Shown in pieces: positions 2,673-7,116 of a stretch of DNA of 10,490 nucleotides. The notes beneath the pieces were generated by a model. That model saw nothing but the letters and a program-made list of their open reading frames with translations, searched no databases and was not told where the DNA came from. The position numbers and the translations under genes were made by a program. Source of the DNA: a bacterium. Lineage in GTDB: Bacteria > Planctomycetota > J058 > JAJDCP01. Positions within the stretch are counted from its first letter, which is position 1. Each line of letters begins with the position of its first letter. The DNA is taken from assembly GCA_030428695.1 (NCBI GenBank), contig JAUIEM010000361.1:1-10490 (forward strand). The letters are read 5' to 3'.

Positions 2673-2811
2673 GCGGACGCCGCGCGGGCGCAGGCGCCCG
2701 TCCAGCGGCAGATGCGCTCCCGAGGTCGCGGCTCAGAAGCTCGAATGGGGGGTGGAGCGAAGCTACGGGCCTCAGCGAAGGTCTGTCCAGGCTCGGGGAG
2801 CCGGGGGGTAG

Positions 2812-2930
2812 AGAGACTGCCACACGGAACCCGAGGACGCAGGTCCCTACGCGTGCGGCGGGCGGGGTAAAGAGGCTGTCTCACGGAACCCGATGACGCA
2901 TGTCCCCGCGCCTGCGGCGGGCGGGGGTAA
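2812..2930. repeat. Two tandem copies of a ~60 bp repeat
   Basis: Copy 1 (2812-2870) and copy 2 (2871-2930) align directly head to tail. Shared blocks in order are AGAG(A/G)CTG, TCACGGAACCCGA or CACACGGAACCCGA, GACGCA(G/T)GTCCC, and TGCGGCGGGCGGGG followed by GTAA. No long open frame with plausible composition runs through them. They lie between the kinase promoter and the transposon and look like a dispersed or tandem intergenic repeat. Function unknown. Confidence 0.75.
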
Positions 2931-3003
2931 AGCCCGCCCCTACCTCCGGTAAGAACGCACACACCGAGGTAGGGGAGGGGTCTACCCCCTCCCGCGAAGC
3001 GGG
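2919..3003. repeat. Cluster of short G/C palindromes (REP-like)
   Basis: Three hairpin-forming palindromes follow one another. GGGCGGG (2919-2925) pairs with CCCGCCC (2933-2939) around a 7 nt loop. GGGAGGGG (2973-2980) pairs with CCCCTCCC (2986-2993). CCCGC (2991-2995) pairs with GCGGG (2999-3003) around GAA. They resemble repetitive extragenic palindromes of GC-rich bacteria. There is no T-tract, so they are not typical intrinsic terminators. The segment around 2941-2970 also carries TACCTCCGG and CCGAGGTA as an imperfect inverted pair. Confidence 0.6.
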
Positions 3004-3056
3004 TGAAGGCGTACCTGACTGGACTCGTGAGACGCCCTCGTAAACCCCGCCCCTAC
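2927..3056. repeat. 17 bp direct repeat GTAAA(G/C)CCCGCCCCTAC, two copies
   Basis: Copies at 2927-2943 and 3040-3056 differ at one of 17 positions. The first copy is part of the GGGCGGG palindrome. The second runs straight into the 28 bp repeat beginning at 3054. This supports the view that 2812-3153 is built from modules of a repeat family. Confidence 0.65.
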
Positions 3057-3153
3057 ATTGGATTCCGACGCACTCAGGCGGTGGACTGGGACGTGCTTGG
3101 GGGCTGATGGTCCTATCCAGATGCGTACATTGGATTCCGACGGACTCAGGCGG
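3054..3153. repeat. 28 bp direct repeat, two copies, the second ending beside the transposon
   Basis: Copy 1 at 3054-3081 and copy 2 at 3126-3153 match at 27 of 28 positions. Both begin TACATTGGATTCCGACG and end ACTCAGGCGG. They are separated by 44 nt. The second copy stops one base before the transposon terminus at 3155. Its expected continuation is not found on the far side of the element. Confidence 0.75.
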
Positions 3154-3154
3154 C

Positions 3155-3207
3155 TGTCGTGTCCCACCCTGCCGGCAAACTCCATCCCACACTTTGCGCC
3201 CCACACT
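3155..3207. repeat. Left transposon end with terminal inverted repeat and two subterminal sites
   Basis: The 16 bp terminal repeat (3155-3170) contains CCCACCCT. The related octamer CCCACACT recurs at 3186-3193 and 3200-3207 in the same orientation. The stretch CCATCCCACACTTTGCG at 3182-3198 matches the right-end sequence CCATCCCGCACACCGTG at 12 of 17 positions. Such repeated sites are where Tn7/Tn5053-type transposases bind; that these bind this transposase is inferred. Confidence 0.75.
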
Positions 3208-3240
3208 CCTCACTCGCTCATAGCTGAGTAGGAAAGACAA

Positions 3241-3272
3241 CTTCGCTTCAGAGATCTGCTGAGGAGCCGAAG
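3241..3272 (+). other. Imperfect stem-loop in the leader of the first transposon gene
   Basis: CTTCG (3241-3245) can pair with CGAAG (3268-3272), and inside it TCAG (3248-3251) with CTGA (3259-3262). GTAGGAAA also occurs twice in this leader, at 3228-3235 and 3279-3286. No clear promoter hexamers are visible between the left end and the first gene, so the transcription start is unknown. Confidence 0.35.
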
Positions 3273-3289
3273 AACAAGGTAGGAAAAGC

Positions 3290-3317
3290 GGAAGGAGGTA
3301 CGGCAATACCTCCTTCC
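3290..3317 (+). promoter_or_regulatory. Perfect 11 bp hairpin burying a Shine-Dalgarno core
   Basis: GGAAGGAGGTA (3290-3300) is the exact reverse complement of TACCTCCTTCC (3307-3317), with the 6 nt loop CGGCAA. The left arm contains GGAGGT, a full anti-16S match, which would be double-stranded in RNA. The first ATG of the downstream gene is at 3327, too far from this motif for normal initiation, and has no other ribosome site. The structure could restrain translation of the first gene, as fold-back RNAs do in some insertion sequences. That role is inferred. Confidence 0.55.
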
Positions 3318-3326
3318 TGCACCGCC

Positions 3327-4169
3327 ATGGCCAACCCCATGCCGGTGACTGTCGGCATTCTATCTCTCGACGAGTACGCAGCGCGACTTGAATCGGGCTC
3401 TCTTTTGTCCGCGCAGGTGCTGTGCCCCCGCTGCCGGTCGGCGTGGCTCCAGCAATCCGGCCGGTGTGTCTGCCGGCCGGTCGTCCTCCTCAGGATCTTG
3501 CCGGACGGCCACCGTCGCCTCGAACTCCATACTTTCGATTGCGCCCTGGCCTGGTGCCGAAGCTGCAAGCACCGGCCGCGGATCCTCCCCGCGTGTGTGC
3601 TCCCGAGAAAGCGGTACGGGCTTCGGATCCAGGAGTTCGCCGTCGACCTGCATGTGGGTGGCGCGAGCTTGCGTCAGGTCGCATGGCGGGAGTTCGCCGG
3701 GAACACCTTTGCCCACTCCACGCTCCATGCCTGGACAGAGGGCGCGGGGTCGTGGGCGCTCGGCAGAGAGCCGGGGACCGTTCCTCGGAGCGCAACCGTC
3801 GCGCAGGTCGCTGCGGAGGCCGAATCGCGCTTCCCAGAGGCCCGACAGCTGAAGCGCGACGACGGCGAGATCGACCCCGAACGGTGTCGCTCCCTCGCGC
3901 GTCGCGAACGTCTGCTTGCGTGTGTCTGGCTCGTGGCGCTCGCCGTGCTTACCGCCGGGTCGATGCCGAGGCTCCTCGCCGGGTTCGTGGAATGGACCCG
4001 CGCATGTCACGGCTTCAGCTTTCGAACCGGGCGCTCATGCACGCGGACTGAACACGTGATACAGCAACAGGTTCCACCATCTCCTCCCGGCCTTGTATCG
4101 AGAGGAGAGAACAAATGGCCGACCCGTGGAAGATCGCCACCTGGCGCTGGGAGCAGATCAGCCCACTGA
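3327..4169 (+). CDS. Zinc-ribbon/HTH accessory protein of the transposon (DUF6431-like)
   Basis: A 280-residue protein of unknown activity, probably DNA-binding. A zinc-ribbon-like N-terminal half has CPRC at 33-36, then C47 and C49, C72, and C77-x2-C80 in AWCRSC. The conserved-looking block LPACVLPRKRYGLRIQEFAV follows at about 87-106. A helix-turn-helix-like segment lies at about 111-137 (GGASLRQVAW ... STLHAW). This order (CPxC, second CxxC, LP-x-P-x-Y, HTH) resembles DUF6431 proteins found beside transposases; the match is from memory, not a search. ATG 3327 is used because an in-frame stop lies at 3225. The last ~40 codons overlap the transposase gene by 55 nt and look non-coding in composition, so the native C-terminus may be shorter and a stop codon lost. 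It may act in target choice, end binding or regulation. Confidence 0.7.
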   Translation: MANPMPVTVGILSLDEYAARLESGSLLSAQVLCPRCRSAWLQQSGRCVCRPVVLLRILPDGHRRLELHTFDCALAWCRSCKHRPRILPACVLPRKRYGLRIQEFAVDLHVGGASLRQVAWREFAGNTFAHSTLHAWTEGAGSWALGREPGTVPRSATVAQVAAEAESRFPEARQLKRDDGEIDPERCRSLARRERLLACVWLVALAVLTAGSMPRLLAGFVEWTRACHGFSFRTGRSCTRTEHVIQQQVPPSPPGLVSRGENKWPTRGRSPPGAGSRSAH

Positions 4170-5677
4170 TCGACCCCAAATTGTCCCGCAGTGAACGTCG
4201 AGCCCTGCTGAAAGAGGCTTCGAGGCGGAAGATCCCTTGGCCGAGTAGCCGCGAGGGTGAGGAGCCGCTGGTCAAGCCGATCAGCCGTCGGACCCTTAAG
4301 CGTTGGATCTCCCGCTACAAGAAGAGCGGTCTCGTAGGCCTTCTGCCCAAAGAACGGTCCGACAAGGACCGTCCTCGCACGGACCGCGAGACGGCCGTGA
4401 TCTATGCCCTCGGCCTGCTGTACGAGGAGCCGGAGCGCTCGCTCACGCAGCTCCTGGTGTATCTCGAGATCGAGTTTCCGGGGCTCGGATTGAAGCGTTC
4501 CACGCTCCACCGTGATCTGCAGGCACATCCGGCCTACCGTGGGGTCCTGGCTCGTCGTGAAGGGAAAAGGCCCAAACTCTACGATCGCTACGAAGCGGCG
4601 GCCCCGCACGACAGCTGGCAGATGGACGGGAAGGGCCCGTTCACGGTCGACTTCGTCGACGGCAGGTGCAAGCGGCTCCACGTCCTGTCGATCCTCGACG
4701 ATCACAGCCGCGTCGTTCTTGCCGGGGTCATCGCCAGGAGCGAGAACCTCGCTGACACCGTCCGGGTTTTCCGCCTCGCCGCTGAGAAGTACGGTCTTCC
4801 GTCGCGCTTTCAGTTCGACCGCGGCTCCGCCTTCGACGCGCACCTCTTCCGCACCGGGCTGGGGCAACTCGGCGTCCACCGCAACCGTGTCCAGGCCAAG
4901 AGTCCGACGTCCCAGGGCAAGATCGAGGCTTATCACCGATCCCTGAGCCGCTGGTTCGTCCAGGAGCTGGAGCACCAGGAAGTCGTCGATCTTGCACACC
5001 TCGAGGGCTTGCTGCAGGCGGTCCTCGACCGTCTCTACAACCAGCACCATCACCGGGAGCTCGGGAAGTCGCCCGCCGACGCCCTGGCCGGAAGGGTCTC
5101 CCCGCGCCAGGTCAGTCGCGACGACCTGCGCCGCGCGTTCAGGGAGCACGCCGAAGCACGCAGCGACCGCAAGACCGGCAAGGTCATGCTGCCGAACGGA
5201 ACCTTCCGCGTCCCGCGGGATCGCGCGGGCAAGAAGGACCGCTTCACCTACGACCTCGTCGAGCCGGAGGCTTTCCTCCTGCGCGGTCCGGCAGGGCCCG
5301 AGGTACGCCTCGAGCCGTTCATGACGAAACGGCCGTTCTTCTGGGAAGACCACGGCGAGAAGGAGGGAACCGGCCAGCTGCAGAAGCTCTACGACCAGTG
5401 GAAGGGCCGGAAACGTCCGAACGCGCAGCCCGGCTTCGGCCTGCCTGAGGTCTTCCAGAAACTCGCCGAGCTGGTCGGCCGCTCGGTCCCCGCGGACGAA
5501 CGGGAGGCCACCCAGATCCACCGATTCTACGCGGAGCGCGGACCGCTCCCTGCCGGCCCGTTCCGCGAGGCCATCGCCCGCACTGCTCGCAAGCTCGGCG
5601 CAGAGAGGCCGATGTCCGCCTACCTCAACCACCTCAAGCGGCTGGTCGACGCCGCGAAGCCGGAGGCTTCACAATGA
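4115..5677 (+). CDS. DDE transposase, TniA/TnsB/Mu type
   Basis: A 520-residue enzyme expected to bind the element ends and catalyse strand transfer through an RNase H-fold core. The N-terminal DNA-binding part includes an HTH at about 52-80 (SRRTLKRWISRYKKSGLVGL) and a second helical region to about 140. The catalytic acids are D171 in WQMDGKG, D235 in FQFDRGSAF and E271 in SQGKIEAYHRS. D235 to E271 gives exactly D-35-E. A Mu-type C-terminal beta-barrel follows (around GTFRVPRDRAGKKDRFTYDLV, about residues 364-385), then a basic tail that in relatives contacts the ATPase. ATG 4115 has GGAG 7 nt upstream. The stop overlaps the ATPase start as ATGA, indicating translational coupling. The protein looks intact. 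No TnsA-like endonuclease is encoded, so replicative or one-strand-cut movement is likely. Confidence 0.92.
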   Translation: MADPWKIATWRWEQISPLIDPKLSRSERRALLKEASRRKIPWPSSREGEEPLVKPISRRTLKRWISRYKKSGLVGLLPKERSDKDRPRTDRETAVIYALGLLYEEPERSLTQLLVYLEIEFPGLGLKRSTLHRDLQAHPAYRGVLARREGKRPKLYDRYEAAAPHDSWQMDGKGPFTVDFVDGRCKRLHVLSILDDHSRVVLAGVIARSENLADTVRVFRLAAEKYGLPSRFQFDRGSAFDAHLFRTGLGQLGVHRNRVQAKSPTSQGKIEAYHRSLSRWFVQELEHQEVVDLAHLEGLLQAVLDRLYNQHHHRELGKSPADALAGRVSPRQVSRDDLRRAFREHAEARSDRKTGKVMLPNGTFRVPRDRAGKKDRFTYDLVEPEAFLLRGPAGPEVRLEPFMTKRPFFWEDHGEKEGTGQLQKLYDQWKGRKRPNAQPGFGLPEVFQKLAELVGRSVPADEREATQIHRFYAERGPLPAGPFREAIARTARKLGAERPMSAYLNHLKRLVDAAKPEASQ

Positions 5678-6402
5678 ACCCCGACCCGTTTCCCTACAAG
5701 GACTTCCAACGCGCCGGCCGCAAGATCCACGGCGTGCTGCAACACGGCTCCGACTGCTATCTGCTGCTCACCGCCGACTCCGGGGCCGGAAAGACGACCC
5801 TGAGCCGGCGTCTCGAGGCGCGCCTCGACCGCTGCCAGAACCGCCTGCTCTACCTGTCCTGCGACCACAAGCTCGGAGCCGCGGGATTCGTGCGGGTCCT
5901 GGCGCGAAGCCTCCGGCTGTCGCCGTTCCGCAGTCACGCGGAGACCACACAGGACATCGCACGCCAGCTCGCCGAGGACCCCCAGCGCACGATCGTGCTG
6001 TTCGACAACGCGCAGGAGCTACCCGACGAGACTTTGCTCGAAGCCCGGACGCTGGCGGAGTCGCGCCTGCAGAAGAGGCCGCTGCTCCAAGTCTTGTTCG
6101 TCGGACTTCCCCCGCTGCGGTCCCGGCTGCAGGCGATCCCTCAGCTCTGGCGGCGGCTTTACATCCGTGAAGAGCTGACCGGGCTCGTGCGCGAAGAGCT
6201 CCCTGCCTTCGTCGAACACCACTTTGACCGCGCACATTGCCAGCGGCTCAACGAGGACGTGCAGTCGCTGATCTTCGAGCGCGGGCGCGGGATCCCCGGC
6301 TTCATGCTTCCGATGCTCCGCCTCGCCTTCGAGACGTTCCCCAACGGCACCGTCGACGTCGCCGACCTCGATGACAGGCTCCAGCAGTGGGACCTGGGGT
6401 AG
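5674..6402 (+). CDS. AAA+ ATPase, TniB/ExeA/MuB-like transposition regulator
   Basis: A 242-residue ATPase that in known relatives (TniB, TnsC, MuB) coats target DNA and recruits or activates the transposase. Walker A is ADSGAGKT at 34-41. Walker B is RTIVLFDNAQEL at 105-116, with Asp111 followed by Asn112 where most relatives have Glu. A sensor-1-like block LFVGLPPLRSRL follows, then a helical lid with FERGRGIPGFMLPMLRLA. The N-terminal YKDF near residue 8 and the size fit the ExeA/TniB type rather than IstB. Coupled to the transposase by a 4 nt ATGA overlap. Loss of the catalytic Glu predicts slow ATP hydrolysis unless another residue compensates. Confidence 0.88.
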   Translation: MNPDPFPYKDFQRAGRKIHGVLQHGSDCYLLLTADSGAGKTTLSRRLEARLDRCQNRLLYLSCDHKLGAAGFVRVLARSLRLSPFRSHAETTQDIARQLAEDPQRTIVLFDNAQELPDETLLEARTLAESRLQKRPLLQVLFVGLPPLRSRLQAIPQLWRRLYIREELTGLVREELPAFVEHHFDRAHCQRLNEDVQSLIFERGRGIPGFMLPMLRLAFETFPNGTVDVADLDDRLQQWDLG

Positions 6403-6406
6403 GACC

Positions 6407-6859
6407 ATGAGCAGCCACTACCCGCAGCTGATCCGCGAGATCCTCCACAAGGTCGGCTTCCGCTACCTGTCCGTCCGTCCGCACGGCTTCGAGGCCGACG
6501 GACGTGTCCTGCTCGAGCTGCGCGCACGCGTGCTGCACCACGGCCCGGCGCGTACGCTCTACTCCCGCCGACGCCCTGCCTGCCGCTCCCTCGACGGCGT
6601 GGCGGCGCTATCCAGCACGGACAAGACCTGCGCCGACTGCGCCGACCGGCAGCGCTGTACCCCGCAGGTCCGGCTCGACTTCCTCCACGGGAGCGAGCCC
6701 TACCGGGTGCTCCTCGCCTTTACGTCCGCCAAGAACTTCCTGCTGTACGAGACTGAGCTGCGGAAGTCGAAGACGTTGCTCCATGAGGTCGTGACGTGCA
6801 TGCGTGTCGTGCACCGCGGAACGTGGGGTGAGGTTCGCTTCCGCCGCAGCATGGACTGA
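6407..6859 (+). CDS. Small four-cysteine protein of unknown function, last gene of the transposon operon
   Basis: A 150-residue protein I do not recognise. It has C59, then C75-x2-C78-x5-C84 (in TCADCADRQRCTPQ), which could form a zinc or other metal site. Around it are strand-rich segments (RVLLELRARVLHH, VRLDFLHGSEPYRVLLAF), a pattern that could be a small beta-barrel; this is a guess. The C-terminal part ends in GTWGEVRFRRSMD. ATG 6407 is 4 nt after the ATPase stop. A further in-frame ATG at 6371 lies inside the ATPase gene and is less likely. Its place as third gene after transposase and ATPase is where Tn5053-type elements keep TniQ, so a targeting or assembly role is plausible, but it has no visible TniQ similarity. 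Confidence 0.75.
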   Translation: MSSHYPQLIREILHKVGFRYLSVRPHGFEADGRVLLELRARVLHHGPARTLYSRRRPACRSLDGVAALSSTDKTCADCADRQRCTPQVRLDFLHGSEPYRVLLAFTSAKNFLLYETELRKSKTLLHEVVTCMRVVHRGTWGEVRFRRSMD

Positions 6860-6860
6860 C

Positions 6861-6879
6861 CTGGGACGGTCACGTCCAG
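6861..6879 (+). terminator. Possible terminator hairpin after the transposon operon
   Basis: GGACG (6864-6868) pairs with CGTCC (6873-6877) around GTCA, and CTG/CAG extends the stem with a bulge. It begins one nucleotide after the last stop codon. There is no T-tract, so intrinsic termination is uncertain. A 12 bp palindrome CGAGTGGACTCG follows at 6885-6896. Confidence 0.3.
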
Positions 6880-6927
6880 CCGCACGAGTGGACTCGGCGT
6901 CAGGCGGCTTGGCTCGCGGTTGGGCAC

Positions 6928-6968
6928 GGTGTGCGGGATGGGTGGGGCCAAGAGTGTGGGACACGACA
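6928..6968. repeat. Right transposon end with terminal inverted repeat and subterminal sites
   Basis: On the minus strand the terminal repeat occupies 6968-6953 and contains CCCACACT. Related sites lie inward at 6946-6939 (CCCACCCA) and 6937-6929 (CCCGCACAC). The spacing of the sites differs from the left end, and the known transposons of this group likewise have unequal ends. Right-end identity rests on the 15/16 match to the left end. Confidence 0.75.
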
Positions 6969-7098: not shown

Positions 7099-7116
7099 GG
7101 TGGGGTGAAGAGTGTG
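7099..7116. repeat. Extra copy of the right-end motif outside the element
   Basis: GGTGGGGTGAAGAGTGTG at 7099-7116 matches GGTGGGGCCAAGAGTGTG at 6941-6958, inside the right end, at 16 of 18 positions and in the same orientation. The outer GGGACACGACA of the true terminus is absent, so it is not a complete end. It may be a relic of an earlier end or an additional binding site. Confidence 0.55.

Follow-up and report, generated by a model that had tools for sequence, protein, structure and literature searches.

The 10,490-nucleotide stretch analysed here (hereafter, the window) is contig JAUIEM010000361.1 of the planctomycete assembly GCA_030428695.1. It carries an intact-looking transposon of 3814 bp (positions 3155–6968) with four genes: p1, a DDE transposase gene, an AAA+ ATPase gene, and p4. 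A reading made from the sequence alone described a Tn7/Tn5053-like element with two uncharacterised cysteine-rich proteins, p1 and p4, in place of the target selector TniQ/TnsD; its coordinates, ends, genes, and gene junctions agreed with our analysis. The question raised by this locus is which of these small proteins sets the element apart and what it may do in transposition. The novelty lies in p4. Judging from comparisons among relatives, one lineage of these elements gained this gene once and, as far as could be seen, has kept it as a core gene.

Recurrence and inheritance of p4

Protein searches, each of which included the window's own sequence, recovered 514 transposases (E ≤ 1e-10 among the 7996 best candidates scored), 111 p4 sequences, and 13 p1 sequences. 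Scanning 84,980 species genomes by alignment yielded 18 loci (L001–L018), all from metagenome-assembled genomes or uncultured records, in phyla including Acidobacteriota, Planctomycetota, Pseudomonadota, Myxococcota, and Auribacterota. The p1 gene was identified in 16, the ATPase gene in 16, and p4 in 14 of these loci (partial in L007 and L015). The four-gene arrangement with TGTCG ends does recur: all four genes were present in the order p1–transposase–ATPase–p4 in 12 of the 18 loci, and none displayed a different order. In the four loci without p4, the contig ends first (L009, L010, and L016) or the element is broken (L017); the contigs of L012 and L018 begin after p1. Tips of the TGTCG[CT]GTCCCA type occurred at both ends of seven, at one end of eight, and at neither end of four of the 19 elements (window and L001–L018), several of which are on contigs that stop inside the element.

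In the transposase tree (24 rows; L010, L016, L017, and L018 left out), the 15 rows of the p4 lineage are separated from all others by a branch with 100/100 support, so that a single change explains the distribution of p4 (none of 500 shuffles gave a value as low). In this count, L009 is labelled p4-positive although its contig stops before the p4 position, and the p4-negative label of L038–L041 rests on 385–535 bases following the ATPase open reading frame (ORF); the firm p4-negative rows are five plasmid loci, in which p4 was searched for and not found. Three outside rows have long branches. Transposase and p4 distances correlate over 12 loci (r = 0.81, P = 2e-4). Within the window's subclade this correlation is weak (r = 0.39, P = 0.10, 8 loci), and local p4 swaps may therefore have occurred there. 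The p4 profile detected 17 places in 13 of 16 host genomes. Fourteen are located inside elements, and the three extra ones, all in one genome (G005), look like remnants: one consists of a truncated ATPase end and a piece of p4, the second is a p4 broken across frames next to a right end, and the third is weak and degenerate. The proposal that the last gene belongs to the core machinery thus holds for the p4 lineage.

Sequence and predicted fold of p4

The cysteines of p4 (Cys59-x15-Cys75-x2-Cys78-x5-Cys84) are invariant in every one of the 34 sequences aligned, out of 111 found. The protein is not an orphan: profile comparison (hhalign E 1.3e-9, 131 columns) relates it to a phage protein family without a name; the score was 69.7, whereas 100 shuffled controls reached at most 16.8. 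The phage relatives include KPP25 ORF069, AXL3_43, Effie gp400, and others (phrog_23155, phrog_27714), and four of the nine aligned adjoin DNA-polymerase genes, according to annotation. In p4 and in the KPP25-ORF069-type proteins alike, the C...C..C...C region lies between two strands. The phage members exceed p4 in length and are mostly acidic, and four of the six full-length ones end in acidic stretches as judged by eye (two do not), whereas p4 is basic and tail-less. Over the last 30 residues, net charge has a median of +1 in the 34 p4 rows and of −2 in the nine phage rows, which include three cut pieces. The acidic C-terminal tail that is common, though not universal, in single-stranded DNA-binding proteins (SSBs) is lacking in p4.

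The structure model of p4 resembles the phiC31 recombination directionality factor gp3, its best fold match, and RB69 gp32, with modest Z scores; a sequence-profile link to gp3 was not obtained (E 0.74 in an hhalign comparison with five gp3 proteins). A near-invariant Q[VL]RLDL stretch (residues 87–92; about 6665–6682 in the window) lies in a predicted beta strand, and the pattern C..Q[VILC]x[LIV]x[LIF] fits 106 of the 111 p4 relatives. This stretch resembles the sliding-clamp hexapeptide QLxLxL. The identification of p4 as TniQ was rejected, as PF06527 (TniQ) was not among the families matched by the 34 p4 members at E ≤ 1. A PADLOC match for p4 was not found either. These comparisons place p4 as a putative zinc-site protein with kin among phage proteins and not with the usual target chooser; binding of both zinc and DNA is predicted. 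This kinship suggests that the lineage selects or handles DNA in a way of its own when it transposes.

Transposase, ATPase, and comparison with known systems

The rve and HTH_32 domains were present in all 40 aligned transposases, while the curated Mu-transpos_C profile (PF09299) matched none of them. The best NCBIfam match of the window transposase was IS481 (132 bits, below the cut-off of 224). Membership in IS481, a single-gene element, was rejected on this score and on the recurrence of three further genes. The transposase aligns with that of a Thermobacillus element (L055; E 2.3e-28, 370 columns), which has Mu-transpos_C (E 4.7e-10). Among PDB sequences, retroviral integrases were the best matches (E 0.002), and TnsB was matched via the helix-turn-helix (HTH) part only (E 0.008). 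In nine of nine outside relatives the match to the transposase profile stops between positions 382 and 412 of 524, so the last approximately 110 positions (consensus RPNAQPGFGLPEVF) look specific to the p4 lineage.

The ATPase profile, built from 14 sequences, matches ShTnsC (E 1.5e-5, positions 32–180) and MuB (E 6e-4), but higher scores were obtained for Cdc6 (2e-7) and for Midasin (4e-9), the latter matching largely around Walker A. The Walker B motif of the window ATPase (6004–6012) carries DN in place of the DE that at least 90% of the 14 aligned rows have; this substitution may weaken ATP hydrolysis.

With Tn7 and Tn5053 (TnsABCD, TniABQ) the element shares the TnsC similarity of its ATPase and TGT...ACA tips with repeated sites. 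It differs from them in that TnsA, TniQ/TnsD, and a resolvase were not detected. No Pfam or NCBIfam match to TnsA was found among the four genes between the ends, and neither TniQ nor the TniR resolvase of Tn5053/Tn402 is encoded by them; the res site was not sought. The core may thus be fairly called Mu/Tn7-type, in view of the Mu-transpos_C relative of the transposase and the TnsC and MuB matches of the ATPase, but the strict labels Tn7 and Tn5053 do not fit. Mu and IS21 operate with a DDE transposase and an AAA+ ATPase and without TniQ. The window element resembles them in this pairing and in the MuB match of its ATPase, and it adds two small cysteine-rich proteins.

The closest arrangement outside the p4 lineage is that of the DUF6431–transposase–ATPase elements (approximately 3.2–3.5 kb) on Thermobacillus pTHECO01, Cupriavidus pBB2, and Acidithiobacillus mpAca1.1. 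Like the window element, they have a p1-family protein, here over the DUF6431 cut-off, a DDE transposase with an ATPase, and TGT...ACA ends. The ATPase of the Acidithiobacillus copy is missing from the (incomplete) gene table, yet an ORF matches the ATPase profile. Unlike in the window element, p4 was not found, and the transposases are 26–30% identical and matched only to profile position 412 of 524. The sequence-only reading would have been contradicted by mobile relatives devoid of both small proteins; the clearly mobile L055 goes half that way, having p1 and no detected p4. Given this relative and the way Mu and IS21 work, p4 need not stand in the place of TniQ.

p1 and its upstream region

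The p1 protein is basic, and its model comprises a zinc-ribbon-like part and a helical part (pLDDT, the predicted local distance difference test score, 77). PF20020 (DUF6431) was matched by 21 of 26 aligned p1 members at E ≤ 0.1 (best 2e-7); the window p1 scored 16 bits, below the cut-off of 26.6. A DUF6431 protein above the cut-off precedes the transposase in three of the five plasmid relatives examined (L051, L053, and L055), and p1 therefore looks like an ancestral partner and not the non-homologous replacement suggested by the sequence-only reading. TniQ (PF06527) was absent among the families matched by the 26 p1 members at E ≤ 0.1, and a PDB sequence scan with p1 revealed nothing TniQ-like. 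Alignment favours a p1 start at 3339 (MPVT...) over 3327.

The reading frame changes between the conserved N-terminal segment of p1 and its core in 8 of the 12 loci measured, near the zinc knuckle. The change is +1 in L001, L002, L003, L004, L007, and L010 and +2/−1 in L005 and L008. One frame was found in the window, L011, L015, and L017 and, by eye, in L009, L013, and L016; L014 was ambiguous by eye, and the sequences of L006, L012, and L018 do not extend over the joint. In L001, L002, L004, and L010 the first frame stops at a TGA just past the first cysteine, and continuing in the +1 frame would yield C-x4-C; L005 has a CCCTTTT heptamer. Clustering of the breaks at one spot suggests recoding (programmed frameshifting) or two coupled ORFs rather than decay.

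Of 11 elements examined, 10 have a perfect inverted repeat of 8–13 bp ahead of p1; L015 and L016 in this sample are near-copies. Their position recurs and their sequence does not. In 200 shuffles per element, no match was obtained for 8 of the 11, one for L013, 12 for L005, and 104 for L014. The repeat, or the hairpin it could form, is a possible operator, attenuator, or insulator.

Organization of the element and its surroundings

Features of the window element are listed in Table 1.

Table 1. Ends, genes, and upstream repeat of the transposon (window coordinates)
Feature	Position	Strand	Remark
Left end: tip TGTCG and two 23-bp tandem repeats (about 3160–3182 and 3183–3205)	3155–3205	+	Tip motif at one end at least in 15 of 19 elements (window and L001–L018)
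Perfect 11-bp inverted repeat with 6-nt loop, just upstream of p1	3290–3317	+	z −4.1; 0 of 200 shuffles as long
p1, DUF6431-like zinc-ribbon and helical/HTH-type protein	3327–4169 (start probably 3339)	+	Overlaps transposase start
DDE transposase, rve	4115–5677	+	D171, D235, and E271 assigned by alignment position
AAA+ ATPase with TnsC/MuB similarity	5674–6402	+	Walker A present (by eye)
p4, basic protein of 150 aa with four cysteines and a predicted OB-like barrel; kin of phage protein family	6407–6859	+	
Right end: tip TGTCG and two 23-bp repeats, inverted	6918–6968	−	

The termini at 3155 and 6968 read TGTCGTGTCCCA and are each followed by the two repeats, which were divided by eye. All genes point rightward and are joined by overlaps or a 4-nt gap: ATGA is shared by the transposase and ATPase genes at 5674, and the gap precedes the ATG of p4 at 6407. 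In one relative (L002:4594-5686), about 1.1 kb separates p4 from the right end; a small ORF found there has an acidic C-terminus (DDHSPDFDDDLPDF) and is possibly a cargo gene or an SSB-tail-like partner.

A Ser/Thr kinase gene borders the element to its left; to its right are genes for a universal stress protein and a protoglobin-histidine kinase. Three repeats occur in the left flank (2805–3153): a tandem one of 59 bp, a direct one of 28 bp, and an inverted one of 30 bp. The element begins one base past the second copy of the direct repeat. Outside the right end, an 18-bp sequence (7099–7116) matches the right-end repeat at 16 of 18 positions (0 of 200 shuffles had two matches); it is perhaps a remnant of another end.

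Insertion sites

A clean target duplication is missing in four of the six elements having both flanks: none was found for the window element, L011, or L014, and the 6-bp repeat of L005 is offset by 5 bp. The other two have CGGGG (5 bp; L008) and CTGAATT (7 bp; L013). Among plasmid relatives, L055 splits a 469-aa ORF with a GCAACT (6 bp) duplication and L053 lies in a 444-aa ORF with CTTG (4 bp); L051 and L054 have none, and the ends of L052 were searched for and not found. With duplications of 4–7 bp or none, their length is variable or partly lost. A shared insertion target was not seen among the elements.

Possible role of p4

We favour, with slightly less than even confidence, the view that p4 was recruited once as a partner of the transposition machinery that binds single-stranded DNA (ssDNA) or forks and permits TnsE-like fork-favoured or fork-assisted insertion. 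The ancestral type would have been p1–transposase–ATPase, an arrangement also seen in plasmid-borne relatives without detectable p4, and one lineage would have acquired p4, a zinc/OB-type (oligonucleotide/oligosaccharide-binding) protein of phage kin lacking the acidic tail. The 23-bp repeats of the ends would be bound by the transposase, which the AAA+ ATPase would recruit to target DNA; there, p4 would bind exposed single-stranded or forked DNA and help to load or orient the ATPase. Replication forks would thereby become favoured or assisted sites of insertion, a behaviour also proposed for TnsE. SSB/PriB-like domains have been reported for TnsE of Tn7, which is also reported to direct insertion to replication forks (PMC10293859). 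No sequence kinship of p4 with TnsE is claimed, and TnsE occurs beside TniQ. TnsE is also larger than p4. The comparison with TnsE makes a surface for single-stranded or forked DNA within the ATPase–transposase complex the most likely contribution of p4. The data directly show the order of the genes, the ends, the confinement of p4 to one branch, and the kinship of p4 and of the transposase; zinc and DNA binding by p4, its contact with the ATPase, fork targeting, target choice, and any need for p4 are what we infer. That p4 goes further and is a free-standing, TniQ-independent selector steering the AAA+/DDE machinery to ssDNA or forks, a second, separately evolved answer to the problem of TnsE, is rather unlikely in our judgement. 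As such a selector, p4 would dock at the C-terminal stretch of the transposase, and Q[VL]RLDL would be a possible clamp contact.

Other roles have to be weighed against fork-associated recruitment. The DNA-polymerase neighbours of the phage kin would also suit a housekeeping SSB of the element, coating gaps or flaps of the strand-transfer intermediate in (replicative) transposition without target choice. Failure to find a TnsA-like nuclease suggests copying by cointegrate, and intramolecular replicative events could cause the missing duplications. But p4 is small and basic, it has none of the acidic tail with which many SSBs attract their partners, and host SSB is abundant; this role is unlikely. 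We consider it less probable that p1 chooses the target or controls the operon, with p4 being secondary. Its basic charge, its zinc-ribbon-like and helical parts, its DUF6431 kin before plasmid-borne transposases, and the adjoining recurrent inverted repeat, a candidate operator, speak for p1; the Pfam and PDB scans without TniQ similarity and the lack of a common target speak against it. The fold match raises the still more doubtful idea of a regulator binding the transposase or ATPase and switching the reaction, as gp3-type factors do for phiC31 integrase. That p4 is a passenger unrelated to transposition is very improbable. Its confinement to one lineage and its apparent absence from the five plasmid relatives would agree with a passenger, but its coupling to the ATPase gene, constant position, single origin on the tree, and invariant cysteines do not, nor do the 14 of 17 places inside elements, the remnant-like nature of the other three, and the PADLOC result.

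Significance

The locus represents a TniQ-free transposon lineage of compact design, built on a DDE transposase and an AAA+ ATPase, that has a dedicated protein related to phage proteins. Should p4 direct insertion to ssDNA or forks, p4 and the ATPase would constitute a small two-part targeting system outside the TniQ world. This would inform how transposons borrow target selectors and might possibly provide a tool. The unnamed phage protein family, in turn, gains a second, testable context.
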